Origin: Streptomyces sp. NBC_01463
GTDB lineage: Bacteria; Actinomycetota; Actinomycetes; Streptomycetales; Streptomycetaceae
Reading direction: 5' to 3'
Length of the DNA: 64,000 nucleotides
NCBI GenBank assembly: GCA_036227345.1
Contig: CP109468.1
Span: 496,001-560,000, forward strand
Part shown: piece by piece, positions 7,314 to 52,002 of the stretch
Layout: each line of letters opens with the position of its first letter
How positions within the stretch are numbered: the stretch's first letter is position 1
Notes under the pieces: model-generated
Databases searched by the model: none
What the model saw: the letters and a program-made list of their open reading frames with translations, nothing else
What the model was told of the DNA's origin: nothing
Program-made: the position numbers and the translations under genes

Positions 7314-7988
7314 ATGGACCCCAGCACCGAGATCACGATGACCGACGTTCCGCCGGGGCGGGTGACCCTGTCCGACCGTCGTACGCAGCGCAGCTGGACG
7401 GTCGATGTCGCACCGTTCCGGCTCGGTACGCACCCCGTGACCCAGGCCCAGTACGCGCAGGTCACGGGCGAGCGGCCGAGTACCGCGCAGGGCGACCCAC
7501 TGCCGGTCGAGGGCGTCTCCTGGCTGGACGCCGTCGGTTTCTGCAACGCACTGTCCCTGCGCGAGGGGCTGACGCCCGCCTACCTCCTCCACCCCGAGGC
7601 CGGGCAGATCCGGTGGGAGGCGGCCGCCGACGGTTACCGGCTGCCGGCCGAGGCCGAGTGGGAGCACGCGTGCCGGGCGGGCACGACGCAGGCGCGGTAC
7701 GGCCCCCTCGACGACATCGCCTGGTATCGCGGCAACTCCCTTGAGCGGCCGCACGAGGTGGGCGGCCGGCTGCCCAACGACTGGGGCCTGTACGACACGT
7801 TGGGCAATGTGTGGGAGTGGTGCTGGGACGTCTACGACGCCGAGGTGTACGGCAGCTACCGGGTGCTGCGGGGCGGTGGCTGGTTCGACGAGCACTGGAG
7901 CTGCCGGGCCTCGGTGCGGCGGCGCAGCCACCCCACGTTCCGGATCGACGACACGGGGTTCCGCGTCGCCCGCTCCGGAACACGGTAG
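7314..7988 (+). CDS. SUMF1/formylglycine-generating-enzyme-like protein lacking one active-site Cys
   Basis: The 224-aa product has the C-type-lectin-like fold signatures of the sulfatase-modifying-factor family: HPVTQAQYAQV, VEGVSWLDAVGFCNAL, YRLPAEAEWEHACRAG and LGNVWEWCWD. Authentic formylglycine-generating enzymes end with a GGS-x-x-C-x4-C motif whose two cysteines bind copper. Here the region reads RGGGWFDEHWSC, with Asp192 where the first Cys should be and only Cys197 kept. It is also shorter than typical enzymes (about 290-310 aa). It may be a non-catalytic relative or act in another oxidation. Two Cys-type sulfatases in this window need formylglycine, but this protein may not supply it. 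It is convergent with, and nearly abuts, the metal operon. Confidence 0.8.
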   Translation: MDPSTEITMTDVPPGRVTLSDRRTQRSWTVDVAPFRLGTHPVTQAQYAQVTGERPSTAQGDPLPVEGVSWLDAVGFCNALSLREGLTPAYLLHPEAGQIRWEAAADGYRLPAEAEWEHACRAGTTQARYGPLDDIAWYRGNSLERPHEVGGRLPNDWGLYDTLGNVWEWCWDVYDAEVYGSYRVLRGGGWFDEHWSCRASVRRRSHPTFRIDDTGFRVARSGTR

Positions 7989-7996
7989 AGCCTCCG

Positions 7997-9553
7997 TCAG
8001 CCGGCCGCGCCCCGGAACTGCCGGGCCGCGTGGACCAGTTCGGCGGTGAAGGGGTGGCGCGGCGCGTGCAGTACGTCGTGCGCCGCCCCGGTCTCCACGA
8101 TGCGGCCGCGCTCCATCACGGCGATCCGGCCGGCGCGGGCCGCCGTGTCCAGGTCGTGGGTGATAAGGACGAGCGCCGGGATCGCGCCCGACCCGAGCAG
8201 CTCCGTGAGGAGCCCGAGGAGGGAGGTCCGGGTGAAGGTGTCGAGGCCCGAGGTGATCTCGTCGCAGACCAGGACCTCGGGGCGGGCGAGCAGGGCGCGG
8301 GCGAGGGCGGCCCGGCGGAGTTCGCCGCCGGACAACTGCCCCGGCAGGCGCAGGGAGCGCTGTGCGGGGAGGTCCAGGGTGCTCAGCGCGGTGAGCGCCT
8401 CGGCTCTGGCCTCGGCCGGGTCCAGGCCGCGCAGCCGGACGGCCGTCCGTGCGATCTGGCCGAGCACGGGGCGGTGGGCGTCGAAGGCCGCCTCCGCGTC
8501 CTGGAAGACGTACTGGACAGCGGCCAGTTGCTCACGGCGACGGTCGCGCAGGCTGCGCGGCAGCGGCCTGCCGTTCAGCAGCACCTCGCCGTCGTGGTCG
8601 CGGTGGAGTCCGCCGATGCAGCGGGCCAGGGTGGTCTTGCCGCTGCCCGACCGGCCGACGACGGCGAGGCATTCACCGGCGCCCACGGTGAGTTCCGCGT
8701 CGTGGAGCACGGGGGTCCGGCCGTGGCGCGCGGTGAGGGCGCGTACGTCCAGCACCGTGCCGCCCGCTGTCGCCGCGATGGGCCGCATGTCCCGTGGTTC
8801 GGCCAGGAGCCGGCGGGTCCAGGTGTCATCAGGATCGTGCAGAACCTGCGCCGCGGGGCCTGCAGCGACGGCCTTTCCGTCGCGGAGGACGACCACGTCG
8901 TCGGCGAGCGCACGGACGACGTCCAGGTCGTGGCTGAGCAGGACGACGGCGACGCCCTGGCCGGCGACGGCGGCCAGGCGCTCGACGATGCGACGTTTCG
9001 TCAGGGGGTCCTGTCCGGTGGTGGGTTCGTCCGCGACGACCGCCCGGGCGCCCAGCAGGAGGGCCTGGGCGAGGACCACTCGCTGCTGCTGGCCGCCGGA
9101 CAGCTGATGCGGAAAACGGCGCAGCATCGCTTCCGCGTCGGGTAGTTGGACGCGCGCGAGGGCATCCAGGACCCGGTCGCGAACCGCTGCCCGGCGCCGG
9201 CGCCCCGGGAGGTGCCGCACCTGACGCCGGGCGATGTCCCTCAGCAGCGCGCCGATCCGGCGGGCGGGATTGAGCACCGTGGCCGGGTGCTGCGGCACGT
9301 AGCCGATCAGACCGCCCGCCACCCGCACGGTGCCCGTCACACGCGCCCCTGGCGGGTACTCGCCCAGCAGGGCGAGCCCGGTGGTCGTCTTCCCGCTGCC
9401 CGAGGCGCCCACCAGGGCGAGGATCCGCCCGGGCAGCACCCGCAGGCCGACACCGTCGACGATCGCCCGCCCGCCGATCTCCACCCGGAGCCCTTCGACC
9501 ACGGCGACGGGCTCTGCCTCAGCCGCCGTACGGTTCTGCGCGGCCGTGTTCAC
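7997..9553 (-). CDS. Dual-domain ABC transporter ATPase of the metal operon (peptide/nickel/opine type)
   Basis: A 518-aa cytoplasmic protein with two complete nucleotide-binding halves, equivalent to a DppD-DppF fusion. Half one (about 10-245) has Walker A GASGSGKTT, signature LSGGQQQRV and VADEPTTG. Half two (about 275-515) has Walker A GRSGSGKTT, signature LSGGELRRA and VCDEITSGLD. The GTG start at 9553 overlaps the permease stop as GTGA. It is the last gene of the ten-gene operon from 19516 and powers the importer made of the two permeases and the family-5 binding protein. By context it should drive re-uptake of the metal-ligand complex. Confidence 0.88.
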   Translation of the reverse strand: MNTAAQNRTAAEAEPVAVVEGLRVEIGGRAIVDGVGLRVLPGRILALVGASGSGKTTTGLALLGEYPPGARVTGTVRVAGGLIGYVPQHPATVLNPARRIGALLRDIARRQVRHLPGRRRRAAVRDRVLDALARVQLPDAEAMLRRFPHQLSGGQQQRVVLAQALLLGARAVVADEPTTGQDPLTKRRIVERLAAVAGQGVAVVLLSHDLDVVRALADDVVVLRDGKAVAAGPAAQVLHDPDDTWTRRLLAEPRDMRPIAATAGGTVLDVRALTARHGRTPVLHDAELTVGAGECLAVVGRSGSGKTTLARCIGGLHRDHDGEVLLNGRPLPRSLRDRRREQLAAVQYVFQDAEAAFDAHRPVLGQIARTAVRLRGLDPAEARAEALTALSTLDLPAQRSLRLPGQLSGGELRRAALARALLARPEVLVCDEITSGLDTFTRTSLLGLLTELLGSGAIPALVLITHDLDTAARAGRIAVMERGRIVETGAAHDVLHAPRHPFTAELVHAARQFRGAAG

Positions 9554-10434
9554 GGGCGCCTCTCCTTGCTGTCGGAACGTACGAGTGCGGCGTCGGCCAG
9601 CAGGTTCCCGCCCATGGTGAGCGCGACGATCAGCAGGGCCGGGACGACGACCGCCCACGGCTGGACGAACAGGCCGGTACGGTTGCGGTCCACCATCACC
9701 GCCCAGTCGGCGGCGTCCGGCCCGACGCCCACACCGAGGAACGCCGCGGTGGCCACCAGGTACAGCGCCCCGGTCAGGCGTACGCCCGCGTCGGCGACCA
9801 GCGGCCGGGCGGCCGACCTTCCGACGTAGCCGAAGGCGATGCGTGCCCAGCTCTCGCCCTGCATGCGCAGCGCCTCGACCGCAGGGCGCGAGGCGGCCTC
9901 GGCCCCGGCGGCGCGGACGATTCTGGCCGCGTCCGGGACGTTGACGAGGGCCACCAGCAGCGCGAGACCGGCAGGCCCCGGTTCGACGACGGCGGCGACC
10001 AGCAGAATCAGCAGCAGCGACGGCACGGAGAGCAGGACGTCCAGCGGACGCATCAGCAGCTCCTCCGCCCAGGCCCGGCGGGTGAGGGCGCAGACGAAGC
10101 CGACGGGCAGCGCCACGGCGTAGGCCAGGGCCGTCGATGCGAGCGCGATCAGCACCACCGGCCGGCCGCCGAGCAGCACCTGCCGGCCGACGTCGCGGCC
10201 GACGAAGTCGGTCCCGAGCCAGTGTCCGCCTCCCGGGGTGAACGAGGTTCCGCGCGCTCCGGCCTCCCCGGCGAACAGCGGTCCGGCCAGTGCCAGTACG
10301 AGCGGCACCAGGATGACGGCCAGGCCGGGCAGGAGACGGCCGAAGCGGGCCCGGGCACGCCCGTCGTCGCTCCTTCGCCGCCCGACGACGAGCGTCTTCA
10401 GTCCGCGCCGGGAACGGGCGAGCGCGAGGGCCAT
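9550..10434 (-). CDS. Family-5 ABC importer permease (DppC/OppC type) of the metal operon
   Basis: A 294-aa inner-membrane protein with an N-terminal basic stretch (ARSRRGLKTLVVGRRR), a first membrane helix, then the DppC hallmark WLGTDFVGRDVGRQVLLGGR, and four to five further helices. The ATPase-contact region is near RMQGESWARIAFGYVG. The ATG at 10434 overlaps the preceding stop as TGATG; a GTG three nt upstream is an equally close alternative. The stop overlaps the ATPase start. It is the partner of the DppB-like permease that precedes it. Confidence 0.87.
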   Translation of the reverse strand: MALALARSRRGLKTLVVGRRRSDDGRARARFGRLLPGLAVILVPLVLALAGPLFAGEAGARGTSFTPGGGHWLGTDFVGRDVGRQVLLGGRPVVLIALASTALAYAVALPVGFVCALTRRAWAEELLMRPLDVLLSVPSLLLILLVAAVVEPGPAGLALLVALVNVPDAARIVRAAGAEAASRPAVEALRMQGESWARIAFGYVGRSAARPLVADAGVRLTGALYLVATAAFLGVGVGPDAADWAVMVDRNRTGLFVQPWAVVVPALLIVALTMGGNLLADAALVRSDSKERRP

Positions 10435-11387
10435 CACGCCGCCACCCCCGCTCGCGGGGCGAAGCGGTGGGTGACCAGGTCCGCTCCGAGGTTAAGCAGG
10501 ACCGTGGCGACGCCGAACACGACCGCGAGGCCCTGCACCACGGGGACGTCCCGTTCCGCGACGGCGTTCATCAGGACCGTGCCGAGTCCCGGAATGACGA
10601 ACAGCGCCTCCACCACGACCACGCCGCACAGCAGCCAGTCGATCGTGCGGGCCAGTTGCTGAGCGGCCGGAGCGAGCGCGTTCGGTAGCGCGTGGGCGTA
10701 GCGGACGCGGGCGCCTGACAGTCCGTGGCGGCTGGCGTGTGCGACGTACGGCGAGGCCAGCGCGTCGGCCATCCCGGCGCGGATCAGCCGGGCGAGCGAG
10801 CACACCGGGCGCGCCAGCAGGACCAGGACGGGGAGCACCAGGGCGGCCGGGTGGGCGGGCAGGTCGGTGCCGTACCCGACGGCGGTCGGCGGCAGCCAGC
10901 CGAGCCGCAGCGCGAAGACGGTGACCAGGAGGACACCGAGTGCGAACTCCGGTACGGCGTAGAGGCCGAGCAGGACCGCGCTGACGAACCGGTCGACGGC
11001 GCGTCCCTGGTGCCGGGCGGCCAGCACGCCGAGGCCGACTGCCGCCGGGACGAGGAGCACGACCGTCGGGACGGCGAGCAGGAGGGTCGGGCCGAAGCCG
11101 TCGCCGAGGTAGGAGGCTACGGGCCGCCCCGAGGTCAGCGAGACTCCGAGGTCGCCGTGGAGCAGCCCGGCCGACCAGTCCAGCAGCCGTTCGTGCGGCG
11201 GCCGGTCCAGGTGCAGGGCGGCCCGGACCGTCTCGATCCGTTCCGGGTCCGGCTGGTCACCGGCGAGGGCCACGGCGGCGTCGCCGGGCAGCGCCTCGGT
11301 GAGGGCGAGGACGAGCAGCACGACGGCCGCGGTCTGCACCCCGCCGAGCAGCAGCCGCCGCGCCGCCCAGGGCAGGGGTCCGCTCAC
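10434..11387 (-). CDS. Family-5 ABC importer permease (DppB/OppB type) of the metal operon
   Basis: A 317-aa membrane permease beginning VSGPLPWAARRLLLGGVQTA. It has the large first periplasmic loop of DppB/NikB proteins (ALAGDQPDPERIETVRAAL, LLHGDLGVSLTSGRPV) followed by about five helices and the EAA-type loop SRHGLSGARVRYAHALPNAL. The start GTG overlaps the binding-protein stop as GTGA (11384-11387). Substrate class is inferred from the neighbouring biosynthesis genes rather than from the permease itself. Confidence 0.87.
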   Translation of the reverse strand: MSGPLPWAARRLLLGGVQTAAVVLLVLALTEALPGDAAVALAGDQPDPERIETVRAALHLDRPPHERLLDWSAGLLHGDLGVSLTSGRPVASYLGDGFGPTLLLAVPTVVLLVPAAVGLGVLAARHQGRAVDRFVSAVLLGLYAVPEFALGVLLVTVFALRLGWLPPTAVGYGTDLPAHPAALVLPVLVLLARPVCSLARLIRAGMADALASPYVAHASRHGLSGARVRYAHALPNALAPAAQQLARTIDWLLCGVVVVEALFVIPGLGTVLMNAVAERDVPVVQGLAVVFGVATVLLNLGADLVTHRFAPRAGVAA

Positions 11388-12988
11388 GCCAGCCACACCT
11401 TGTCGAAGCGGGCCCAGTCCAGGGTGTTGGCGGGCGCCTGCCGCTCGACGCCCCGGACCGTGCGGGCGGTGCCGAGTATCCAGTCGGCGAAGCCCCAGAT
11501 CAGGAAGGGGCCTTCGGTGTGGAGGCGGCGCTGCATGCGGGAGTAGACGGCGGCGCGCTCCCGCGGGTCCCTCGTCGACTGGGCCTGCTGGTAGAGGGTG
11601 TCGAAGTCGGGGTGGCGCCACTTGGTCGCGTTGGTGGTCGAACCGGTCAGCAGGCGCTGGGAGAGGTGTGACTCGATGGGCATGGCGCCGGAGCGGTAGC
11701 AGCAGAGGGTGCCGGCGTCGAGGATGTCCTTCCAGTAGGTGTCCTTGCTGCCGGTCCTCACCTCGACGGTGATGCCTGCCCGGGCCGCCTGGTCGCGGAA
11801 GACGGCCGCGGCCTCAGTGAATCCGGCGGCGACGGGTGAAGTGTCGAGGGTGATCCGCAGGTCATCGGCGCCGGCCTGCCTCAGCAGGCTGCGGGCCCGG
11901 CCGAGGTCCTGTTCGCGCTGGGGCAGAGCGTCGGCGTAGTACTCGTACCCCTTGCCGAAGAGGTCGTTGCCGATCTCGCCGGCGCCGGAGAGGGCTCCCT
12001 TGACGAGTTCCGCGCGGTCGGCGACGAGCAGCAGGGCCTGCCGGACGCGCCGGTCGTCGAACGGTGGCCGGTCGGTCTTCATGGCGAAGGACTGCATCGC
12101 GCTGTTGCGCAGGCGCACGATCCGGATCCGCCCGCCGTCCTCGTGGGCGCGGGCGGTCGCCGGGTTCAGCTCGTGGGCGTACTCGACCTGGCCGCCGAGC
12201 AGGGCGTTGACGCGTGCGGACTCCTCGTTGGCGACGACGAACTCCAGCTCGTCGAGGTGCGGGGCGCCGTCCCAGTAGGCGTCGTTGCGCCGCAGGACGG
12301 TGGACCGGCCGGGGGCGAAGGACACCAGCCGGAACGGTCCGCTGCCGACGGGCCGGTGGTCGAAGTCGCCGTCCCGGGCGGTCGCGGGGACGACGTACGC
12401 GCCGAACGCGGCCATGACGTTGGGGAATTCGGCCGTCGGACGCTTGAGGACGAACTCGACGGTCCGCGCGTCCAGGGCCCTGCTGGCCGCGAGGTCGACC
12501 GGTTCGAGTGACGCCTTCGCGCGAAAGGTGCGCGCGGGGTCGGCGATGCGGCGGTAGCTGTGCAGTACGTCCTTCGCGGTGACCGGCCGCCCGTCGTGGA
12601 AGACGGCGGCCCGCAGGGAGACCTTCCACCGGTCCAGGGTCCTGTTGGGCTCCCAGGAGGAGGCGAGGCGGGGCTGAGCGGAGAGGTCGGCGCCGTAGTC
12701 GGCCAGCTTGTCGTAGAGGGCCTTGGCGCGGGCCGCGTCGGCGAACAGGTTGCTCAGGTGCGGGTCGAGGGTCTCGCTCGCACCGCCCCCGGCGAAGGCG
12801 GCCCTGAGCCGTCCGCCGCGCTTCGGCCGACCGGCCTCGCCGTCGACGTCGGCCCGGGTGTCCGAGGGGCCGGCGCAGCCGGTCAGCCCGAGGGTGCCGA
12901 GGCCGGCCGCGCCGGAGGCGGCGAGGAAGCCGCGGCGGTGCAGGCCGGGGAAGGGTGTCGCTGTCGTGGTGCGTTCGTCGCTGGGCAT
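11384..12988 (-). CDS. Family-5 extracellular solute-binding lipoprotein of the metal operon
   Basis: A 534-aa secreted binding protein. Its signal peptide combines a twin-arginine motif (RRGFLAA, about residues 18-24) with a lipobox LTGC near residue 37, so it is probably exported folded by Tat and lipid-anchored. The mature part has SBP_bac_5 landmarks: ETLDPHLSNLFADAARAKAL, WKVSLRAAVFHDGRPVTAKD and VGSGPFRLVSF. The family includes oligopeptide, nickel and opine-metallophore (CntA-like) receptors. AAGGA lies eight nt before the ATG, and a 51-nt gap separates it from the methyltransferase, the widest in the operon. In context it is the likely receptor for the exported chelate. Confidence 0.87.
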   Translation of the reverse strand: MPSDERTTTATPFPGLHRRGFLAASGAAGLGTLGLTGCAGPSDTRADVDGEAGRPKRGGRLRAAFAGGGASETLDPHLSNLFADAARAKALYDKLADYGADLSAQPRLASSWEPNRTLDRWKVSLRAAVFHDGRPVTAKDVLHSYRRIADPARTFRAKASLEPVDLAASRALDARTVEFVLKRPTAEFPNVMAAFGAYVVPATARDGDFDHRPVGSGPFRLVSFAPGRSTVLRRNDAYWDGAPHLDELEFVVANEESARVNALLGGQVEYAHELNPATARAHEDGGRIRIVRLRNSAMQSFAMKTDRPPFDDRRVRQALLLVADRAELVKGALSGAGEIGNDLFGKGYEYYADALPQREQDLGRARSLLRQAGADDLRITLDTSPVAAGFTEAAAVFRDQAARAGITVEVRTGSKDTYWKDILDAGTLCCYRSGAMPIESHLSQRLLTGSTTNATKWRHPDFDTLYQQAQSTRDPRERAAVYSRMQRRLHTEGPFLIWGFADWILGTARTVRGVERQAPANTLDWARFDKVWLA

Positions 12989-13039
12989 GGGGATGTCCTT
13001 GATCCGGTGGGAGCGTACGAGGAAGGAGGAGGGGCCCGG

Positions 13040-13828
13040 TCAGCTGCCCGTGAGCCGGGCGATGACGTGGAGGCGGTCGGCGTCGGCCGTTCCGGTGGGC
13101 AGGAGGCCCTCGCGCCAGGGGGGTTCGGTGCGTGGGCCGGGGCCGTCGTGGAGGTCGAGGACCTCGAATCCGTGGGCGGTGAGGGCCTGTCGGAGCTCGG
13201 CGGGGAGCAACAGCCGCCAGGCGGAGCATTGTTCGACCGGGGATGAGCCGTCGTCCGTGGTCCAGGTGCGGCTGCGGTGCAGCAGGCGGGCGGCCGGGTC
13301 CACGCGCAGCCGGGTGACGGAGCGGTGGACGACGCCCCGATGGGTGAAGGTGTGGACGGCCGGGGCCGTGGGGAGTGCGGCGCCGCGGAGGAAGTACGCG
13401 CCGTTGCGTATCTCCGCGACGAGCAGACCGCCGGGCGTCAGACTGCGTCGGCAGGAGGTGAGGAAGCTGTCGGTCTCGGCGTCGGTCCGGCAGTAGAGCA
13501 GCGCACTGTCCAGACAGACGACGGCGTCGAAGCGCCGTGCTCCCAGGTCGAACCCCCTCAGGTCGGCCCGGAGATACTCCGGCCCAGGGTGCTCACGGGA
13601 GGCATGCCGGAGCATCGCGCCGGAGAGGTCGGCACCGGTAACGGCGCGCCCCGCCGCATGGAGGTGGGCGGCGTCGCGGCCGGTGCCGCAGCCTATGTCC
13701 AGGACGCGCGGTCCGGCTCCGTACCTCCTGAGCGTCTCCTCGGTCCAGCGTCCGGCGAGCCGTTCGGGGTCCGGGAAGCGGGCCTCGTACAGCGCCGGGT
13801 TGTCGGTGAGCAGGTTGGCGTCGTCCAC
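13040..13828 (-). CDS. SAM-dependent class I methyltransferase
   Basis: A 262-aa cytosolic methyltransferase with the SAM-binding motif I VLDIGCGTGRDAAHL (about residues 44-58), the acidic end of beta2 (VTGADLSGAML), and motif LDSALLYCRTDAE. The GTG at 13828 has GAGGAG seven nt upstream and begins ten nt after the exporter stop, so it is co-transcribed. The substrate is unknown. Between an exporter and an importer in a metallophore-like operon it most likely N- or O-methylates the product or an intermediate. It has no zinc-finger or nucleic-acid domain that would suggest RNA or DNA as substrate. Confidence 0.85.
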   Translation of the reverse strand: MDDANLLTDNPALYEARFPDPERLAGRWTEETLRRYGAGPRVLDIGCGTGRDAAHLHAAGRAVTGADLSGAMLRHASREHPGPEYLRADLRGFDLGARRFDAVVCLDSALLYCRTDAETDSFLTSCRRSLTPGGLLVAEIRNGAYFLRGAALPTAPAVHTFTHRGVVHRSVTRLRVDPAARLLHRSRTWTTDDGSSPVEQCSAWRLLLPAELRQALTAHGFEVLDLHDGPGPRTEPPWREGLLPTGTADADRLHVIARLTGS

Positions 13829-13838
13829 GGGGCTCTCC

Positions 13839-15098
13839 TCAGGCATGGACGGGTACGGGAACCGGTCGGCCGGGCAGCGTGCCGCGGCGGTGGAGGCGTA
13901 GGGTCCCGGCGGCGGACACGAGACCGAGCACCAGACAGCAGGCCCAGGGCAGCCAGCCGGCGCCGATGCGCTGACCGGTGTCCATCGCCCAGCCGACGGC
14001 GGCGTTCCCCAGGGCGGCGGCGATGCCGGACACGACGTAGAAGACACCGAAGTAGGTGCCGGTGAGGCCGGGCCTGCCGAAGGCGGGGATCAGTTCCATC
14101 ACGAACGGCTGGGCGACCATGAGCCCGGTCTGCAGCAGCAGGGAACCCGCAAGGACGGGTATCGCGCGCAGCACCGCCTGGCTCGTGTCCGTGTCCGGCG
14201 GGGCGCCGGACGTCACCAGCACGGGCGGCACGAAGGCCGCGGCCGTCAGCAGCAGACCCGTGGCGATCCAGGTGGCCCGGCTGCCCCGCCGTTTCAGGGC
14301 GCGGGTGATGCGCAGCTGGAACGCCAGTCCGGCGAGCGTCCCCACGAGGAACACCAGGCCCGCCGCACCGTCCCAGCCGGTGGCCCTGCGGGCGCCGTCG
14401 GGGAACAGCAGATAGAGCTGGCTCTCCAGAGCGACCATGCCGGCCAGCGCGCACGCGAAGGCCATGAAGGGGCGGTTGCGGACCACTTCGCGCCAGTCGG
14501 CGAGTACGCCGCTCGTGGCCGGTGCGGCCCGGCGGGGCGGCAGCACCAGGGCCTGGGCGACGGTGAGCACGGCGAAGATCCCGGCGGCGGTGAGCGCGGC
14601 TGCCCGGAAGTCGACGAGGAGCAGGACGCTGCCGAGAAGGGGGCCGATGAGCGCGCCCGTCGTCGCGAAGACGTTGAACAGCGCGAACGCCTCGGCCCTG
14701 CGCTCCCCCGCCTCCTGGGCGAGGTAGCTGCGGACGGCGGGGTTGAACAACGCGCCGGCCAGTCCGCTGAGTACGGACGCGGCGAGCAGGACCGCGATCC
14801 CGTCACCGAGCGCGAATAGAGCGAAGCCGGCCGTCCGCAGTCCGCATCCGGCGATGATCACCCCGCGGGCGCCCAGCCGGTCCGCGGCCGAGCCCCCGAT
14901 GACGAACAGCCCCTGCTGGCTGAGGCTGCGCACTCCGAGCACGGTGCCGACGACGGCGGCGGACATCCCGAGGCCGTCGCTCAGGTGCACGGCGAGATAG
15001 GGGATCAGCAGGTAGAAGCCGGTGTTGACGCCGAGCTGGTTGACCAGCAGAAGGCGTACGGCCGGGGGAAAGGCGCATATCTCGCGCCAGGTCTTCAC
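13839..15098 (-). CDS. MFS exporter of the metal operon
   Basis: A 419-aa inner-membrane protein with about twelve helices and MFS motif-A-like loops (GGSAADRLGARGVIIAG in the N-half, RALKRRGSR in the C-half). The GTG at 15098 overlaps the epimerase stop as GTGA. The fold and size match single-compound exporters. Lying between the biosynthetic genes and the methyltransferase, it is the natural candidate for secretion of the product, comparable in role to CntE of the staphylopine system. The substrate call is inference from context. Confidence 0.85.
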   Translation of the reverse strand: MKTWREICAFPPAVRLLLVNQLGVNTGFYLLIPYLAVHLSDGLGMSAAVVGTVLGVRSLSQQGLFVIGGSAADRLGARGVIIAGCGLRTAGFALFALGDGIAVLLAASVLSGLAGALFNPAVRSYLAQEAGERRAEAFALFNVFATTGALIGPLLGSVLLLVDFRAAALTAAGIFAVLTVAQALVLPPRRAAPATSGVLADWREVVRNRPFMAFACALAGMVALESQLYLLFPDGARRATGWDGAAGLVFLVGTLAGLAFQLRITRALKRRGSRATWIATGLLLTAAAFVPPVLVTSGAPPDTDTSQAVLRAIPVLAGSLLLQTGLMVAQPFVMELIPAFGRPGLTGTYFGVFYVVSGIAAALGNAAVGWAMDTGQRIGAGWLPWACCLVLGLVSAAGTLRLHRRGTLPGRPVPVPVHA

Positions 15099-16240
15099 GG
15101 GGTCACCTCGGCGGCCCGGATACGCACCCGTGCGGGGCCGTCCGCCACGGGGTGCGAGCGGCGCACGTCGAAGGGCGTGCGCGGGCGTACGCCGAGTCCG
15201 GGGTGACCGCTCGCCCGCACGCTGCCGTCGGTGCCGCCGATCCCCGTCCACGGGTCGTGGTCGAGCAGCAGGTGTCCGTCGAGGTCGGTCCACCGGGCGC
15301 GGTCGGCGAGGTGCACCGCGGGGGCGATGCCGAGCGAACTGGCGGTGAGGCAGCCGAGCATGAGACCGGTGCCGCTGCCGGCGATCAGCCCCGCGATGCG
15401 CAGGGCGGCGCTCACGCCTCCGCACTTGGCGAGTTTCACGTTGATGCCCTGCACCCGGCCGGCGAGCCGCCGGGCGTCCTCGATGTCCACGGCGTCCTCG
15501 TCTGCGATGACGGGCAGCGGTGAGCGTGCGGCGAGCCGGGCCAAGGCCTCGGGGTCGCCCGGGGCGACGGGCTGTTCGACGGCCTCGACGCCCAGTTCGG
15601 CGAAGCGCCCCAGCAGGACGGGCGCCGACGCGGCGCTCCAGCCGCCGTTGGGGTCGAGGAGCAGCCGCGCGTGCGGGGCGGCGGCGCGCACGGCACGTAC
15701 GCGGGCGACGTCGTCCTCCGGGTCGGCCGAGCCGACCTTGAGCTTGATGACGGTGAACCCGTCGTCCGCCAGCCGGGCTGCGAGGGCGCCGGCGCGGCGG
15801 GGCGAAGTGATCCCGATGGTGCGGGCCGTGGCGGCGGCGGGTGCCGAGGCCGTGCCGATGAGGCGGTACGCGGGCAGTCCGGCACGCTTGCCGACGAGAT
15901 CGAGCAGCGCCGACTCCACGGCGGCGGTGACGGCCGGCGGCGTACCGGATCCCAGCGGCCCGCCGTCACCGCCGGGGTCGCCGGACGCATGCGCGGACAG
16001 GGCGGCCAGAGCCGTCTCCGGGTCGGGGAACCTGGTGAGTGCGCGGGCGCACCGGTCCAGCCAGTGGGTCACGGTGGCGGTGTCGAGGCCGTAGTACACG
16101 CTGGTGACGGTCTCGCCGTGGCCGTGCGCACCCTCGTGCTCGATGGACAGGCGGACGGCGTCCCGGGCCGTCGTGGTGGACCGGGAGATCCGCAGCGGCT
16201 CGGCGAGCCGCAGTCCGACGGTGCGCCGGGTCGCCTTCAT
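15095..16240 (-). CDS. Enolase-superfamily dipeptide epimerase-like enzyme
   Basis: The 381-aa protein has the two-domain architecture of the mandelate racemase/muconate lactonising group. Its catalytic set fits dipeptide epimerases: the K-x-K motif Lys166-Leu-Lys168 (VIKLKVG), metal ligands Asp196 (LLLDPNGGW), Glu222 (VEQPV) and Asp247 (VIADEDAV), and the opposite-face lysine around 269-272 (NVKLAKCGG). Such enzymes invert an alpha carbon in small peptides such as L-Ala-D/L-Glu. With an ATP-grasp ligase in the same operon, a dipeptide-like intermediate is a reasonable substrate. The ATG overlaps the previous stop as ATGA and has GGAGG upstream. Muconate cycloisomerase or succinylbenzoate synthase activity is a less likely alternative. 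Confidence 0.83.
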   Translation of the reverse strand: MKATRRTVGLRLAEPLRISRSTTTARDAVRLSIEHEGAHGHGETVTSVYYGLDTATVTHWLDRCARALTRFPDPETALAALSAHASGDPGGDGGPLGSGTPPAVTAAVESALLDLVGKRAGLPAYRLIGTASAPAAATARTIGITSPRRAGALAARLADDGFTVIKLKVGSADPEDDVARVRAVRAAAPHARLLLDPNGGWSAASAPVLLGRFAELGVEAVEQPVAPGDPEALARLAARSPLPVIADEDAVDIEDARRLAGRVQGINVKLAKCGGVSAALRIAGLIAGSGTGLMLGCLTASSLGIAPAVHLADRARWTDLDGHLLLDHDPWTGIGGTDGSVRASGHPGLGVRPRTPFDVRRSHPVADGPARVRIRAAEVTP

Positions 16241-17433
16241 CGGGACTCCTCCGGTGCGTAGGGCAGGCGGACGGTGTACGGGCGGGTGTGCGGCAGCGTG
16301 TTTCCCGCGGGCGCACGGGTCGTCGCGGCGCCCGCGGGCGCACGGCTGACCGGCAGTCGCGGCGGCCGTAGGTCCTCGCGCCGGCCGGTGACCGTGCGAC
16401 AGCGGGTCCAGCCGGTCGCCTCCACGGCCTGCGGATGGCGGATCTCCACCGGTCTGACCGCCGCCGTCTCCGGGACCAGTCCGTGCCGGGCGTTGAACCC
16501 GTCATTGAAGATGCTGCCGAGGTAGCGGTGCGGTCCGTCCGGGAAGACCGTCGCGACGACCGCACCCGGGTGGACTCGGGCGGCCCAGGCCGCGACGAGC
16601 GCGACGGCTCCGGTGCTCCAGCCGCCGCTGACGAAGTTGTCCCTGGCCAGCCGCCGGCAGCTGTCGGCGGCCTCGGCGGGCCCGACCCAGTGGACCTCGT
16701 CGAACTGGTCGTGCGCCACGTTGCGCGGACGGATGCTGCTGCCGAGTCCGCGCATCAGGCGGGGCCTTGCGGGCTGTCCGAAGATCGTCGAGCCGGTGGC
16801 GTCGACACCGATCAGCCGCAGTCCGGGCCAGCGCCCGCGGAGCGGACCGGCGACTCCGGCGCTGTGCCCGCCCGTTCCTACGCTGCACACGAGGATGTCC
16901 ACGTGGTCGAGGCGGCCGGTGATCTCGGCGGCGAGCGAGGCGTAACCGGCGGTGTTGTCGGGGTTGTTGTACTGGTCGGGCCAGTAGGCACCGGGCAGTC
17001 CGGCGAGCAGTTCCCGGAGCCTGGCCAGCCGGGCCGCCTGCCAGCCGCCCTCGGGGGCGGGCCGGTCGACGAGTTCCAGCCGGGCTCCGTGTGCGTGCAG
17101 GAGCCGGCGCATCGACGGTTCGAGTTCGCTGTCGCCGACCAGCACGACCGGGTGGCCGAGTGCCTGGCCCGCGAAGGCGAGTCCGATGCCGAGGGTGCCG
17201 GAGGTGGACTCCACCACCGGTGCGCCGGGGCGCAGTTCGCCGCGCCGCTCGGCTCCCTGCAGCATCGACACGGCGGCGCGCGCCTTCATGCCGCCCACGG
17301 CGAAGCCTTCGAGCTTGGCCCAGAAGCCGGGGTGCGGGCAGGGCAGGTCGGCGGTGATGCGGGCGAGCGGGGTGCGGCCGACGAGCCCGAGGAGCTCGCG
17401 GTTGCCGGCGGGGCGCAGCAGTGCGGTGGTCAC
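16237..17433 (-). CDS. PLP-dependent cysteine-synthase-like (SbnA-like) enzyme
   Basis: A 398-aa fold-type II PLP enzyme. Lys50 in FAVGGMKARAA is the expected Schiff-base lysine, ESTSGTLGIGLA is the substrate loop, and CSVGTGGHSAG binds the phosphate. The C-terminal 60 residues are Arg/Pro-rich and look like an extension. Relatives make cysteine, cystathionine or, in siderophore pathways, diaminopropionate precursors (SbnA). The usual Asn in the TSGN loop is Thr here. The GTG at 17433 overlaps the DUF364 stop as GTGA. In this operon it probably makes a beta-substituted alanine building block; a plain cysteine-biosynthesis role is unlikely given its neighbours. Confidence 0.83.
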   Translation of the reverse strand: MTTALLRPAGNRELLGLVGRTPLARITADLPCPHPGFWAKLEGFAVGGMKARAAVSMLQGAERRGELRPGAPVVESTSGTLGIGLAFAGQALGHPVVLVGDSELEPSMRRLLHAHGARLELVDRPAPEGGWQAARLARLRELLAGLPGAYWPDQYNNPDNTAGYASLAAEITGRLDHVDILVCSVGTGGHSAGVAGPLRGRWPGLRLIGVDATGSTIFGQPARPRLMRGLGSSIRPRNVAHDQFDEVHWVGPAEAADSCRRLARDNFVSGGWSTGAVALVAAWAARVHPGAVVATVFPDGPHRYLGSIFNDGFNARHGLVPETAAVRPVEIRHPQAVEATGWTRCRTVTGRREDLRPPRLPVSRAPAGAATTRAPAGNTLPHTRPYTVRLPYAPEESR

Positions 17434-18263
17434 GGGGTGCCTCCGTACAGGTGGATGGTTCCGGGGCCGCCGTCGAGCCAGAAGAACGGGTAGGGCTCGG
17501 CGGACACCGCGGTGACTCCGGCGCCGATGAGCCGGGGCAGCACCGCGCTGCCGGTCTGGGCGAAGACGACCAGGGGTTTGCCGTGCCGCAGGGCGTGTTC
17601 CCGCAGCGGCTCGAAGGTGCCGTTGCCGAGGGTCATTCCGGAGGCGAGGATCGCGTCGCAGTCCTCCGGTCCGGCCGGCACCCGGGTCCGCACCGGCTCG
17701 CCCCATTCGGTCGTGCCGCCCTTGAGATCGCACGGCACGTAGCCGAGCCCGCGCTCACGCAGCGCCTCCAGAAGGGAGTTGACGACGCCGACGACGAGGA
17801 CGGTGCCGCCCGGCGGGGTGCCGAGCAGCCCGACGACGGCGCGTGCCCGGGCCCGGGACTTCTCCAGCGAGCTGCCGGCCGGCAGCGGCCACGGCCGGGC
17901 ACCGCTCCCGGGGCCGTGCGGCCGGGTGTGCAGGAGATACGTGTCGAGGGCGGCGGCCCGCACCGGGCCCAGCTCGTGGCCGAGCAGCGTGGCGACATCG
18001 GCGCCGACACAGTCGTCGACGACGCCGGCGGGCAGTTCGCCCGGCTCGACGGCACAGGAGCCGACGGCCGCGTCGAGGCGCAGGCTCAGCACCTCGTTGC
18101 GGTAGCCGCTGCCACGCCCGGCGTGGCGTACGGACTGGCGGGTGGTGAAGGCCATGGCGATGCGCCTGCTCCGCGGGTCGGGCCCGTAGCGGCCGGCCAG
18201 GACTCCGGCGACGAGGTCCTCGTAGGAGGCCGCGGCGGGCACGGTGGCGGCGGCCGCGGTCAT
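17430..18263 (-). CDS. DUF4213/DUF364 domain protein (putative heavy-metal chelation family)
   Basis: The 277-aa product has an N-terminal enolase-N-like region (about 1-115, DUF4213 type: IAMAFTTRQSVRHAGRGSG) and a C-terminal Rossmann-like DUF364 region (about 150-277: TVLVVGVVNSLLEAL, CDAILASGMTLGNGTFEPL, PLVVFAQTGSAVLPRLIGAG). DUF364 proteins have been annotated as putative heavy-metal chelators from structure and genomic context; their reaction is not established. The ATG overlaps the ATP-grasp stop as ATGA. Presence of this family inside a zinc-box operon strengthens the metal link. It could be a metal chaperone or sensor or an enzyme of unknown reaction. Confidence 0.75.
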   Translation of the reverse strand: MTAAAATVPAAASYEDLVAGVLAGRYGPDPRSRRIAMAFTTRQSVRHAGRGSGYRNEVLSLRLDAAVGSCAVEPGELPAGVVDDCVGADVATLLGHELGPVRAAALDTYLLHTRPHGPGSGARPWPLPAGSSLEKSRARARAVVGLLGTPPGGTVLVVGVVNSLLEALRERGLGYVPCDLKGGTTEWGEPVRTRVPAGPEDCDAILASGMTLGNGTFEPLREHALRHGKPLVVFAQTGSAVLPRLIGAGVTAVSAEPYPFFWLDGGPGTIHLYGGTP

Positions 18264-19516
18264 CGGGCCGCCACCCTGGGGCGCAGCCGGGCGATGAGCG
18301 ACTCGACGCGGTCCCGGGCGCCCGGGCCGTCGGCGTCGCCGGCCATGACATGGCCCAGGTAGTCGTTGTTGCTGCCCGTGGCGCCGACCCGGGTGCCGGG
18401 TGCCGCGAGGCTGAGCTCCAGCACTCCGGGCGCCGCGCCCACCTCGTCGTCGCCTTCGATCCGGTCCAGCACTCCCCCGGTTCCCGGCACCAGGAAGCCG
18501 ATGGCCGCGCTGTGCAGTCCGGTGGCGCGGGGGCGCAGGTCCGGTTCGCGGCCGAGCGCCACGTTCACGCAGGCGGCGGTGATGTCGATGCCGGTCACAT
18601 GGCGGACCAGTTCGGTGATGCGGTTGCCGGCCGGGCGGGGGTTGACCTCCACCACGCGCGGGCCCTCGGGGGTCAGCTTGATCTCGGTGTGCGCCACGAC
18701 GGCATCCAGGCCGAGCGCCTCGACCGCAGCCACGGCGGTCTCCCGGGCCGCGCGGTCGTCCGGCCCGGTGAGCGGGGCGGGGAACATGTGGCCGGTCTCC
18801 ACGAAGGCGGGTGCTCCGCCGATGCTCTTGTCCGTCACCCCGACCACCTGGGTGCGTCCGCCGGACGTCACGGTCTCGACGCTGACTTCGGGGCCGTGGA
18901 GGAACTCCTCCAGGAGTACGGCGGGGTCGCGTCGCTGCCCGCGGGCGTTGACCGGGAAGTCGGCGAGTGCGCGGTACGCCTCGGTGAGGCCGGTCTCGTC
19001 GTCGATGCGCCGCACGAACATCCCGGCGCACAGGTCGACGGGTTTGAGGACGAGCGGCAGTCCGATGTCCCGCGCGGCCCGCAGCGCCTCCGCCGGGTCG
19101 CGGCACACCGCGAACCGCGGTCCCGGCACCCCCGCTTCGGCGAGCACCCGCCGGGTGGCGTCCTTCCGGCAGGCGTTCCGCACGGCGGCCGGGGCGGGGC
19201 CGGGAAGACCCAGCCGGGCGGCGATCCCGGCGGCCGCCGGCAGGTAGTAGTCGCAGGACGTGATGACGCCGTCGAACTCCAGGGATGCGTGGGCCCGTTC
19301 GGCGAACGGCAGCAGCGTCCCGGAGTCGTTGGTGTCGGCCGTCAGCACGTGCCGGGCCGAGAGCAGCGGGTGTGCGGCGCCCTCGGGGGCGGCGCGCAGG
19401 TAGTGGTGCAGATCGCGGGTGAGGAAGGTGAACGTGTGTCCGCCTTCGCGGATCGCCCGTGGCAGCAGTCTGCTCATCGATCCGACCCAGCTCTCGACCA
19501 TCAGCAGATGTGCCAC
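18260..19516 (-). CDS. ATP-grasp carboxylate-amine ligase, first gene of the metal operon
   Basis: A 418-aa cytosolic enzyme. The N-terminal domain (about 1-110) begins MAHLLMVESWVGS. The ATP-grasp core follows, with the ATP lysine in GLPLVLKPVD, the EEFLHGPEVSVE strand, and Mg ligands in EIKLTPEGPRVVEVNPRPAG. The C-terminal part (about 330-418) resembles the extension of BacD-type L-amino-acid ligases. Such enzymes join a carboxylate to an amine through an acyl phosphate. It is the promoter-proximal gene, with a 5' leader of about 75 nt and a metal-box promoter at 19597-19625. The amino acid or keto-acid partners cannot be deduced. Confidence 0.85.
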   Translation of the reverse strand: MAHLLMVESWVGSMSRLLPRAIREGGHTFTFLTRDLHHYLRAAPEGAAHPLLSARHVLTADTNDSGTLLPFAERAHASLEFDGVITSCDYYLPAAAGIAARLGLPGPAPAAVRNACRKDATRRVLAEAGVPGPRFAVCRDPAEALRAARDIGLPLVLKPVDLCAGMFVRRIDDETGLTEAYRALADFPVNARGQRRDPAVLLEEFLHGPEVSVETVTSGGRTQVVGVTDKSIGGAPAFVETGHMFPAPLTGPDDRAARETAVAAVEALGLDAVVAHTEIKLTPEGPRVVEVNPRPAGNRITELVRHVTGIDITAACVNVALGREPDLRPRATGLHSAAIGFLVPGTGGVLDRIEGDDEVGAAPGVLELSLAAPGTRVGATGSNNDYLGHVMAGDADGPGARDRVESLIARLRPRVAAR

Positions 19517-19596
19517 GACTACCCCTCTTCGCTGTGCAGTTCAGGACCCGGGCAGGCGGCGGCACCCACCCGGGGGCCGCCCACCCGGCACGGCAC

Positions 19597-19625
19597 ACGT
19601 TATCGACAATCGTTTTCATTGTCAT
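19597..19625 (-). promoter_or_regulatory. Promoter of the ten-gene metal operon
   Basis: On the minus strand ATGACA (19625-19620, one mismatch to TTGACA), a 17-nt spacer and TAACGT (19602-19597, fitting TANNNT) form a promoter starting near 19590. The inverted repeat at 19605-19623 fills the spacer and touches both boxes, so a bound repressor must block transcription. Confidence 0.65.
19604..19623 (-). promoter_or_regulatory. Zur-like metal box over the operon promoter
   Basis: GACAAT (19605-19610) and ATTGTC (19618-19623) are a perfect inverted repeat with seven nt between. Read on the minus strand, the overlapping 15-mer TGAAAACGATTGTCG (19618 to 19604) matches the Streptomyces Zur box as I recall it (TGAAAATGATTTTCA) at 12 of 15 positions. 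It does not resemble the iron (IdeR/DmdR) box. Zinc-dependent repression is inferred. Confidence 0.6.
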
Positions 19626-48312: not shown

Positions 48313-50169
48313 TCACGCGAGCGCTTCCGTCTTCTGTGCCACCGCGGCACGGGCGGCCGGGGGTACGGGTTCCGGGGCCGCCGCCAGCAGGGCTCGGGTG
48401 TACGGGTCGCGGGGGTTCTCGCAGACCTCGTCGGCGCTGCCGGTCTCCACGATCCGGCCCCGGTGCATGACCGCGATGCGGTGGCTCACCTGCCGGACGA
48501 CGGCGAGGTCGTGGGCGATGAAGACCAGCGCGAGCCCGAGGTCGCGCTGGAGGTCGGTGAGCAGGCCGACGATCTGTGCCTGGACCGACACGTCGAGCGC
48601 GGAGACGGGTTCGTCGCAGATGAGGACGGAGGGTTCGGGGGCCAGTGCCCGTGCGATGCCGATGCGCTGGCGCTGGCCGCCGGAGAAGGAGCGCGGATGC
48701 CGGTCGGCGACCGCCGGGTCGAGGCCGGCCCGGCGCAGCAGTTCGGCCACCCGTGCCTCGCGTTCGTCCCGGTCGCCCAGGCCGAAGGCGATCAGCGGTT
48801 CGGCGACGATCTCGCCGACCGTCATCCGGGGGTTGAGCGAGGCGTACGGGTCCTGGAACACCATCTGGACCTGGCGGCGCACCGCGTGCAGGGCGCGCCG
48901 CGAGGGCCGGGTGACGTCCTCGCCGTTCAGCCGGATGCTGCCCTCGTCCGCGGTGTGGGCGTGCGCCAGCACCCGGGCCAGGGTCGACTTCCCGGAGCCG
49001 GACTCACCGACGATGCCGAGGGTCTCCCCCGCCGACAGGCTCAGCGACACCCCGTCGAGCGCGGGGACCGCGTGCCGCCGGACACCGCGCCGCCGGTAGG
49101 TCTTGCGCAGCCCCTCCGCCTCCAGGACGACGGGCCCGGGGGCCGGGCGGTCGATGCGGGCCGGCGGGGCCGGGGCGGGCAGCGGTTCGGTCCGCGCGGC
49201 GGCGGGCAGGCAGGCGACGTGCACCCCGTCCGCCGTGCGGGTGAGCGGTGGTGCGGCGGTGCGGCAGCGGTCCTCGACCAGCGTGCAGCGGTCGGCGAAG
49301 GCGCAGCCGTCCCCGAGCAGGGTGAGGTCGGGCGGGCTGCCGGGGATGCCGGTGAGCCGGGTGCCGGACGGGGTGGAGAGGCGGGGCACTGCGGCGAGGA
49401 GCCCCGCGGTGTAGGGGTGGCGGGGGCGGCTCAGCACCTCGGCGGTGGGCCCGTCCTCGACGACCGTGCCGCCGTACATGACCAGGACGCGTTCGCAGGC
49501 GCGGGCGACGACACCCATGTTGTGGGTGATGAGGACCAGGGCGGTGCCGGTCTCCCGGTTGAGGTCGGCGAGCAGGGTGAGGATCTGGTCCTGGACGGTG
49601 GCGTCCAGCGCGGTGGTCGGTTCGTCGGCGAGCAGGATGTCGGGTTCGCCGGCCAGGGCCATGGCGATGAGGATGCGCTGGCGCTGGCCGCCGGAGAACT
49701 GGTGCGGGTGGTCGTCGGCGCGCCGGTGCGGCTCGGGGATGCCGACGCGGGCCAGGAGTTCGACGGCGCGGGCCCTGCGGGCGGCCCTGTCGCGGTCGCC
49801 GTGTGCGCGGAGCACCTCCTCGATGTGGCGGCCGGCCGTCAGGACCGGGTTCAGGGCCGTCATCGGGTCCTGGAAGATCATGCCGATGCGGGCGCCGCGC
49901 ACCGCGCGCAGTTCCTGTCCGGTGGCGGCGGCCAGGTCCCGGCCGTCCAGGTGGACCGTGCCGGTGGTGATGCGGCCGGTGCCGGGCAGCATCCGGTTCA
50001 GGGCGAGCGCGGTGGTGGACTTGCCGGAGCCGGACTCGCCGACGACGGCCAGGGTCTCGCCCCGGTTCAGGGTGAACGACACACCGCGGACGGCGCGCAG
50101 CGCCGAACCGTCGGGTGCGGTGAACTCGACGCCGAGGTCACGGACCTGCAGCAGCTCCTGGGCGGTCAT
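48313..50169 (-). CDS. Dual-domain ABC importer ATPase of the sulfur operon
   Basis: A 618-aa fused DppD-DppF-type ATPase. Half one (about 1-325) has Walker A GESGSGKSTTA, signature FSGGQRQRI, LADEPTTALD, and the oligopeptide-transporter C-terminal Cys cluster (CAFADRCTLVEDRC). Half two (about 350-600) has Walker A GESGSGKSTLA, signature FSGGQRQRI and ICDEPVSALD. The ATG overlaps the permease stop as ATGA. It energises the importer with the two permeases and the binding protein upstream. The substrate is inferred to be an organosulfur compound from the sulfatase and leader peptide. Confidence 0.9.
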   Translation of the reverse strand: MTAQELLQVRDLGVEFTAPDGSALRAVRGVSFTLNRGETLAVVGESGSGKSTTALALNRMLPGTGRITTGTVHLDGRDLAAATGQELRAVRGARIGMIFQDPMTALNPVLTAGRHIEEVLRAHGDRDRAARRARAVELLARVGIPEPHRRADDHPHQFSGGQRQRILIAMALAGEPDILLADEPTTALDATVQDQILTLLADLNRETGTALVLITHNMGVVARACERVLVMYGGTVVEDGPTAEVLSRPRHPYTAGLLAAVPRLSTPSGTRLTGIPGSPPDLTLLGDGCAFADRCTLVEDRCRTAAPPLTRTADGVHVACLPAAARTEPLPAPAPPARIDRPAPGPVVLEAEGLRKTYRRRGVRRHAVPALDGVSLSLSAGETLGIVGESGSGKSTLARVLAHAHTADEGSIRLNGEDVTRPSRRALHAVRRQVQMVFQDPYASLNPRMTVGEIVAEPLIAFGLGDRDEREARVAELLRRAGLDPAVADRHPRSFSGGQRQRIGIARALAPEPSVLICDEPVSALDVSVQAQIVGLLTDLQRDLGLALVFIAHDLAVVRQVSHRIAVMHRGRIVETGSADEVCENPRDPYTRALLAAAPEPVPPAARAAVAQKTEALA

Positions 50170-51053
50170 CGGCGTATCTCCCGGTTGAGCGCCTCGGCGA
50201 TGAGCCAGAGTCCGAGGACGAGCGCGGTCACGGTGATCAGGGGGCCCGCGGCGAAGTTGGGGGCCTGGGCGAGGTAGGGCATGGACTGGCTGAGCACGGC
50301 CCCGAGGGTGGGTTCCGGCGGGCGTACGCCGACGCCGAGGAAGCTCATCGCGCCCTCGATGAAGACGGCCACGGTCAGGGAGACGGCGATCTGCACGATG
50401 AGCGGGTCGGCCGCGTTGGGCAGGATGTGCCGGACGAGCACCCGGCGGCCCGAACTGCCGCCGACCCGGGCGGCGGTGACGTACTCCCGCTCCCGCTGGA
50501 CGAGGATTCCGCCGCGCAGCAGCCGTCCGAACGCGGGGATCTCGGCGAGGGCGATGACGAGCACGACGGGGAGGCGTCCGGGGCCGAGGATCGCGGTGAC
50601 GGCGAGCGCCAGGATCAGGCCGGGGAAGGCGAGCAGGAGGTCGAAGACGCGCTGGACGACGGTGTCGGCCACCGGGTGGGCGGCGGCGACGAGGGCGAAC
50701 AGGCAGCCCAGTACGGCGCCGAGGGGCACGGCGACCGCGATGATGCCGAGGTCGGCTCGGATTCCGTGGAGGACGCGGCTGAGCAGGTCCCGGCCGAGGT
50801 CGTCCGTGCCCAGCGGATGGCCCGGGGTGCCGAGGGCGGCGAGGCTCTGGCCGCTCTGGTCGGTGGGGCCGTGTCCGGCGATGAGCGGTGCGAGCAGCCC
50901 GGCGAGGATCACGGCGCCGACGAGGACGAGGCCGGTGCGGGCGCGGGCGGTGGACAGGGCGCTGCGGTAGGGGTGGCGGCCGCGGGTCCGGCCGCGTGGC
51001 CCGGAGGCCGGCGGGGGCGGGCCGGCGGCGAGGAGGTCGGTCGTCGAGGTCAT
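50166..51053 (-). CDS. ABC importer permease (DppC type) of the sulfur operon
   Basis: A 295-aa membrane protein with a cytoplasmic N-terminus (about 1-35), first helix (TGLVLVGAVILAGLLAPLI), the DppC hallmark HPLGTDDLGRDLLSRVLHG, then five helices and the ATPase-contact loop AARVGGSSGRRVLVRHILPN. It begins three nt after the upstream permease stop and overlaps the ATPase start. Family-5 permeases take up peptides, nickel or other polar organics. Confidence 0.9.
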   Translation of the reverse strand: MTSTTDLLAAGPPPPASGPRGRTRGRHPYRSALSTARARTGLVLVGAVILAGLLAPLIAGHGPTDQSGQSLAALGTPGHPLGTDDLGRDLLSRVLHGIRADLGIIAVAVPLGAVLGCLFALVAAAHPVADTVVQRVFDLLLAFPGLILALAVTAILGPGRLPVVLVIALAEIPAFGRLLRGGILVQREREYVTAARVGGSSGRRVLVRHILPNAADPLIVQIAVSLTVAVFIEGAMSFLGVGVRPPEPTLGAVLSQSMPYLAQAPNFAAGPLITVTALVLGLWLIAEALNREIRR

Positions 51054-51056
51054 GGG

Positions 51057-52001: not shown

Positions 52002-52002
52002 G

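Follow-up and report, generated by a model that had tools for sequence, protein, structure and literature searches.

A candidate Zur-repressed zincophore operon in Streptomyces and a possible wider class of zinc-linked metallophore clusters

The ten-gene operon and its promoter

The DNA considered here is a 64-kb stretch (the window) of Streptomyces sp. NBC_01463 (contig CP109468.1, positions 496,001 to 560,000), taken from a 9.07-Mb assembly of that genus. Gene order, strand and family searches place ten co-directional genes on its minus strand at 7997-19516. To judge from the sequence, these genes are one operon, which we discuss as a candidate system for zinc scavenging by a small secreted molecule. 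The original prediction, made from the DNA letters, had given a gene order, strand and set of families that agree with the Pfam and NCBIfam matches. Furthermore, the make-export-reimport gene set that it recognised is present, with biosynthesis genes, a major facilitator superfamily (MFS) transporter and a family-5 importer all in the operon. Its statement that nearly all genes overlap by 4 nt holds for seven of the nine junctions; the other two are gaps of 10 nt (MFS/methyltransferase) and 51 nt (methyltransferase/binding protein). Of its operon span, 7997 to 19625, the 7997 end stands, whereas gene 1 starts with a GTG at 19516 and 19625 is the edge of the promoter's -35 hexamer. The features are as follows.

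19597..19625, minus strand: promoter, -35 ATGACA (19625-19620), 17-nt spacer, -10 TAACGT (19602-19597); hexamers assigned by eye
19604..19618, minus strand: Zur-type box TGAAAACGATTGTCG, wholly within the -35/-10 spacer; from the consensus and the znuA-trained matrix
18260..19516, minus strand: gene 1, ATP-grasp amino-acid ligase, 418 aa, GTG start at 19516; PF13535 and LAL_C2 PF18603
17430..18263, minus strand: gene 2, DUF364-like, 277 aa; PF04016 near its cut-off, alignment A1
16237..17433, minus strand: gene 3, SbnA-like pyridoxal phosphate (PLP; PALP) enzyme, 398 aa; TIGR03945 below cut-off, SbnA structure match
15095..16240, minus strand: gene 4, enolase-superfamily dipeptide epimerase / N-acylamino-acid racemase-like (MR_MLE), 381 aa; PF13378 and PF02746
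13839..15098, minus strand: gene 5, MFS transporter, presumed exporter, 419 aa; PF07690
13040..13828, minus strand: gene 6, S-adenosylmethionine-dependent methyltransferase, 262 aa; PF13649, 66.5 bits
11384..12988, minus strand: gene 7, family-5 solute-binding protein (SBP), 534 aa; PF00496
10434..11387, minus strand: gene 8, ATP-binding cassette (ABC) permease B, 317 aa; PF00528
9550..10437, minus strand: gene 9, ABC permease C, 295 aa; PF00528
7997..9553, minus strand: gene 10, fused double ATPase, a NikD/CntF-like half followed by a CntD/NikE-like half, 518 aa; PF00005 in two stretches

The sole evident promoter does contain a Zur-like box, as had been predicted. Chromatin immunoprecipitation in S. 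coelicolor is reported to give the Zur motif tGaNNatSatNNtCa (PMC5472717). The box departs from a strict consensus at three positions, and 0.05 chance matches are expected in the window. We also scored it on a matrix whose training set was 60 sites, 11 of them distinct, that were picked with the published consensus in 30 znuA promoters and include none from the operon. The box scores 21.0 on this matrix and is the top site of the 64 kb, the runner-up reaching 12.2. Thus, a 7-1-7 box of the kind that marks the Streptomyces Zur regulon stands at the promoter.

Elsewhere in the same genome, the znuA gene (PF01297) carries two boxes of the operon-box motif and is followed, about 1.9 kb downstream, by a Fur-family gene. 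The pattern TGANAANSNTTNTCA, allowing at most one mismatch, occurs at ten sites in the genome, including the operon box, two at znuA and one just upstream of a second family-5 SBP gene. By itself this pattern is weak evidence, because the reversed control pattern has six sites.

Conservation of the box among related loci

We kept 80 related loci of 288 found, which with the window make 81 (type 1). All ten genes are present in 71 of the 72 loci with enough sequence, out of the 80. For each locus, the best matrix site within 300 bp upstream of gene 1 was ranked within the whole locus. This site ranks first in 74 of 81 loci and third or better in 80. Across the 81 loci the upstream flanks vary and the box and promoter hold, the block TGAcAATGAAAAtGATTatCGaTA.cGT being the majority consensus of the upstream regions. 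Only 6 of 1,573,161 other positions reach the median upstream score of 19.1; these background sites lie in L009, L012, L026 (two), L027 and L062. Four of them stand upstream of a gene for a ZigA-like CobW GTPase (518 bits in L026, with a cut-off of 600), one between the genes for type-B L31 and L28 (L026), and the L027 site adjoins GNAT and hydrolase genes. Five of the six are therefore beside known kinds of zinc gene. The ZigA-like GTPase has its own box in all four testable cases, the fifth (L080) falling at the locus end, and boxed zinc genes adjoin the operon in four loci.

Motifs for two other metal regulators had no excess in the 81 upstream regions, with means of 10.0 against 10.2 of 19 in shuffles for DmdR (iron) and 6.3 against 6.4 of 10 for Nur (nickel). 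A simpler consensus count was superseded by the znuA-trained matrix; in it, 9/11 or better was reached by 76 of 81 upstream regions, compared with 1.2% of shuffled sequences and 4.3% of positions drawn at random.

The operon is found outside Streptomyces as well. With hits in 8 of 396 genomes, two of the hits weak, a sample of the phylum had suggested a Streptomyces-only operon; this was ruled out by a family-level sample, where 61 of 249 genomes, belonging to 5 of 17 genera, hold the DUF364 gene. All 19 non-Streptomyces hits were used. They come from four genera, with 14 loci from one genus, and since L175 duplicates L026 (100% over 13,839 bp) they hold 18 new loci. The upstream site ranks first in 17 of the 19 (16 of the 18 new) and second in the other two, and the ten genes are complete in 14. 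In the largest group, 11 of 14 loci score at least 20.7, and in most of these both the palindrome and the promoter flank around it are different ones; among the 19 loci, TGAAAACCACTTTCA and TGGAAACGGTTTCCA are examples of such palindromes in unrelated flanks. A change of palindrome together with its flank is expected if selection acts on a Zur site and not on the promoter. Among the reduced copies, genes 1-4 and 6 remain in L182 and genes 1-6 in L190; both loci have strong sites, and neither has an importer in the fetched stretch. The smallest retained unit is genes 1-4. The search of homologous gene sets that the original prediction had proposed thus recovers the operon in 80 and 19 loci with Zur-type boxes conserved upstream. 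Homologous operons devoid of any metal box, the result it had named as contrary, are not what these two sets contain.

The neighbourhood of the 80 loci has recurring genes too, mostly on the upstream side: a GNAT acetyltransferase in 29 and a TAP-like alpha/beta hydrolase in 44. A similar GNAT gene occurs at a different place in the window's own genome (L143, C1 at about 4.163-4.166 Mb). There the GNAT gene is followed by a Zur-like box that fits the full consensus, TGAAAATGATTGTCA, and just beyond this box come another family-5 SBP and a 631-aa double permease (L143:12524-14050 and 10624-12519).

Protein families and a second cluster type

For two of the ten proteins, the NCBIfam results given here are those among the 25 matches listed for each. 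The best NCBIfam model for the gene 1 ligase is NF002563, named argininosuccinate lyase (200 bits, below cut-off), of which it covers just positions 8-392 of 890. Its nearest solved relative is the L-amino acid ligase BL00235 (3vot), and BacD is also among the nearest. Dipeptide epimerases carry the catalytic pattern KxK...D...E...D...K, with DxD at the barrel's end. Aligned to its nearest solved relative, 3iji (deposited as muconate cycloisomerase), gene 4 shows the KxK, D, E, D and K residues and a C-terminal DLD; 4gfi and the dipeptide epimerases 3jva and 1jpm come next. The best NCBIfam model is DgcA, an N-acetyl-D-Glu racemase, below its cut-off. The predicted dipeptide epimerase is hence plausible from its catalytic residues, and an N-acylamino-acid racemase is also conceivable.

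The gene 2 protein scores 22.4 bits on PF04016 against a gathering cut-off of 23. Two distant homologues exceed this cut-off (46.5 and 43.4 bits), and PF04016 is precomputed for most homologues among the 120 matches listed. A sequence search of solved structures gave a single chance-level match (E 0.14). The protein appears to share a PF04016-type C-terminal region with Dhaf4260 (PDB 3l5o), which has a proposed function; here DUF364 is tied to Zur-box clusters. In 2010, condensation or hydrolysis of small molecules and a role in metal chelation were proposed for DUF364 (PMC2954201).

The best solved match of gene 3 is S. aureus SbnA. It retains the PLP lysine and the equivalent of SbnA Arg132; among 20 proteins compared, this arginine is found in types 1 and 2, in true SbnA and in CysM, and is missing from CBS. 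An SbnB-like gene was found by tblastn, with the own genome's two SbnB-type proteins as queries, in none of the window, the 80 and 19 type-1 loci (one a duplicate) and the 30 type-2 loci described below. The same genome has two SbnA genes above the TIGR03945 cut-off, both beside OCD/SbnB-type genes. The Pfam matches of the ten proteins include no nicotianamine-synthase, opine-dehydrogenase, lyase or nonribosomal peptide synthetase (NRPS) domain. The earlier claim that the operon lacks nicotianamine-synthase-like, opine dehydrogenase, lyase and SbnB genes is thereby borne out.

On the transport side, the gene 7 SBP has a twin-arginine signal and a lipobox (by eye). Its best NCBIfam model is NikA-type, with CntA weaker and all below cut-off, and its nearest solved relative is AgaA. 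The two halves of gene 10 match best TIGR02770, NF047576, NF047578 and TIGR02769, again below cut-off.

DUF364 genes in Streptomyces fall into two forms. Among 295 genomes, a close form (at least 68% identity) occurs in 69, a distant one (39-44%) in 55 and both in 2, with one further genome having a weak match only; DUF364 is thus present in 122 genomes, about two fifths. Co-occurrence in 2 genomes compares with 12.9 expected (Fisher p = 3e-5, on counts taken regardless of descent). The type-2 set comprises 30 distant loci (L103-L112, L148-L167; DUF364 identity 40-44%), namely 29 from the 55 Streptomyces genomes and G620 from the phylum sample, and its gene queries were drawn from five of the same 30 loci. 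Gene content was inspected in these 30 and in the 80 and 19 type-1 loci, rather than in the other 26 distant and 69 close cases as such.

Type-2 loci carry an SbnA-like gene (29/30) and an MFS transporter (30/30), often with a GHMP kinase (23/30), a FecCD permease (22/30) or a small-domain (MTS) methyltransferase (13/30), and less often a family-5 binding protein or a PhyH oxygenase (5/30 each). The type-1 ligase and epimerase occur in 0 of 30. Within 9 kb, the top Zur score reaches 14 or more in 29 loci and 19 or more in 23; the one locus below 14, L151, lies on a contig that ends at DUF364. As controls, eight segments of 15-17.5 kb (four overlapping) peak at 6.7-13.7. When the region upstream of their own gene 1 is set aside, a score of 14 is reached in 11 of the 81 type-1 loci and one of 19 in 5, of which four carry ZigA-like or other zinc genes. 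An O-phosphorylated amino acid could come from the GHMP kinase; of the two such kinases scanned, neither has an NCBIfam match at 1e-8.

Proposed function, alternatives and meaning

We regard zinc control of the operon as very likely, given the position and conservation of the box. That it is a Zur-repressed operon making, exporting and re-importing a small zinc-binding molecule (a zincophore) is a less firm but still likely reading. With zinc present, Zur would occupy the promoter spacer and block transcription; when zinc is short, Zur would leave and one transcript of about 11.5 kb would be made. In the most likely chemistry, the SbnA-like enzyme would form a bond between an amino acid's amino group and the beta-carbon of a substrate of phosphoserine type. 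The resulting amine-linked diacid would be retained as first product, the simplest guess because there is no SbnB to cleave it. The nearest solved relatives of ligase and epimerase suggest amide formation and inversion, so that the ATP-grasp enzyme may add an amino acid via an amide bond and the epimerase may invert one centre. The methyltransferase would add a cap, and DUF364 could perform some condensing or cyclising step. The MFS protein would export the product and the family-5 ABC system would retrieve its zinc complex. Any particular product structure would be a doubtful guess.

By analogy, the gene set fits the make-export-reimport plan of opine-like zincophores. Staphylopine and pseudopaline (cnt) likewise combine biosynthesis, an exporter and a family-5 or FecCD importer under zinc-responsive control, as reported (PMC7438024, PMC6103462). 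The exporter and importer part of this arrangement is present here, with MFS and family-5 genes in the window and FecCD (22/30) or family-5 (5/30) genes in type 2, whereas no nicotianamine-synthase-like (CntL) or opine-dehydrogenase (CntM) domain is found in the operon. Furthermore, its epimerase-like enzyme belongs to the enolase superfamily and is not a histidine racemase of the CntK fold. The ethylenediamine-disuccinate (EDDS) cluster works by SbnA-type chemistry with an SbnA-like/SbnB-like pair and an argininosuccinate-lyase-like enzyme. Set against this gene content, rather than by cluster alignment, the operon has the SbnA-like enzyme alone, lacks an SbnB-like gene and a lyase domain, and adds the ATP-grasp ligase, epimerase, DUF364 and methyltransferase. 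It shares the SbnA-like enzyme, with SbnA as best solved match, with the SbnA/SbnB pathway to L-diaminopropionate (L-Dap) of staphyloferrin B, but gene 3 lies below the SbnA equivalog cut-off and no SbnB is found. Coelibactin is NRPS-made, in contrast to the operon, which has no NRPS domain. What would be shared with the actinomycete systems is the control: Zur regulation is reported for the aminopolycarboxylate [S,S]-EDDS of Amycolatopsis japonicum (PMC6103462, PMC9252823) and for coelibactin as a zincophore of S. coelicolor (PMC5472717).

Could the product nevertheless be a known chelator, i.e., EDDS, ethylenediaminesuccinic acid hydroxyarginine (EDHA) or an aspergillomarasmine-like aminopolycarboxylate made by a different gene set, or the system be one already described? 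An SbnA-type C-N bond is expected in aminopolycarboxylate chemistry, and the family whose N-terminal part the ligase resembles goes by the name argininosuccinate lyase. EDDS is itself Zur-controlled (PMC6103462, PMC9252823), and the 11-kb EDHA cluster of S. scabiei was reported to be missed by antiSMASH (PMC8914351). We consider this unlikely, since the search of 130 sequences, one of them a duplicate, gave no SbnB-like gene, the window operon has no lyase domain, and its ligase, epimerase and methyltransferase point to further steps. A ligase, an epimerase and an MFS protein also form a layout of dipeptide antibiotics. The zinc-starvation operon might then yield no metallophore at all; a modified dipeptide would be exported as inhibitor or signal while the importer scavenges peptides. 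The alanine-anticapsin ligase BacD among the nearest solved ligases and the many peptide carriers in the importer family fit this proposal. It is made rather improbable by the dedicated importer within the same operon, by ATPase halves that score best, though below cut-off, on NikD/CntF and CntD/NikE models, and by the FecCD importers of type 2, family 5 and FecCD being the reported importers of opine-like zincophore clusters (PMC7438024).

Two further explanations concern the metal and the box itself. Nickel-type models give the SBP and the permeases their highest scores, though below cut-off, and staphylopine-type chelators carry several metals; a Zur-controlled metallophore serving mainly another metal, e.g., nickel or cobalt, is conceivable. 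However, the conserved operator is Zur-type, the Nur and DmdR motifs have no excess, and the boxed neighbours in four loci are zinc genes, which leaves this explanation with little probability. In Streptomyces, the box overlaps a promoter that is conserved for its own sake in genomes sharing descent. The Zur-like site could thus simply reflect the conservation of an AT-rich promoter, with no regulation of the operon by zinc. This appears highly improbable, because in other genera the flanks differ while the 15-mer stays a good palindrome, and because boxed zinc genes adjoin the operon.

Several observations weigh against the zincophore reading and its extension to type 2. The loci are related by descent, so the counts are not independent samples. 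In L064 the best upstream site is weak (6.4, rank 5). Importer genes are missing from the fetched stretch in 5 of the 19 other-genus loci, and L185, L187 and L188 have genes 1-4 only, with weak sites (10.3, 11.9 and 10.3); these operons are possibly decaying or relying on transporters elsewhere. The importer alone is not diagnostic of zinc, because family-5 importers also carry peptides, opines and nickel. Gene 3 reaches 238.4 bits on the SbnA equivalog TIGR03945, against a curated cut-off of 349.95. Arg132 and Tyr152 both have roles in SbnA, but Tyr152, tried as substrate evidence, is uninformative, since every one of the 20 proteins has it, even CBS and CysM; the Arg132 equivalent alone discriminates. 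In the SbnA tree (20 sequences), a split with support 0.969 leaves types 1 and 2 together on one side, yet the type-2 branch is very long and the two are not firmly united. Six of the 29 type-2 sites score just 14.2-18.4, and some type-1 loci have scores of at least 14 without known reason.

For us, the most interesting outcome is the SbnA-like/DUF364 core common to two cluster types. Since the SbnA-like, DUF364 and MFS genes and the Zur-like site recur in type 2, these genes with an importer look like the core of a wider zinc-linked metallophore class. We lean, by a modest degree, towards a new class in which the SbnA-like and DUF364 enzymes are common, accessory enzymes and importer vary, the forms largely replace each other, and DUF364 is a metallophore-biosynthesis enzyme. 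The accessory variants, held with the same modest confidence, would be ATP-grasp ligase plus epimerase, GHMP kinase, or PhyH oxygenase plus methyltransferase, with an importer of family 5 or FecCD. Systems of this kind are known, whereas this gene set appears to be new: among the matches listed from the open PMC literature, no description of the operon or of the SbnA-like and DUF364 pairing was found. This proposed way of scavenging zinc is apparently widespread and undescribed. If so, a large share of Streptomyces would take up scarce zinc by means of a family of chelators that cluster-finding rules in standard use may miss, and a domain for which metal chelation was proposed in 2010 would acquire a role open to test. 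There is a demand for new zinc chelators from nature; the inhibition of metallo-beta-lactamases by aspergillomarasmine A, for example, is reported to come about through its sequestering of Zn2+ (PMC8319579).

Two further features of the window may be added. A gene with an FGE-sulfatase (sulfatase-modifying factor) domain at 7314-7988, plus strand, is convergent with the 3' end of the operon. A second family-5 ABC importer set lies at 48313-53595, minus strand, and consists of an SBP_bac_5 protein, two BPD_transp_1 permeases and a 618-aa ATPase.

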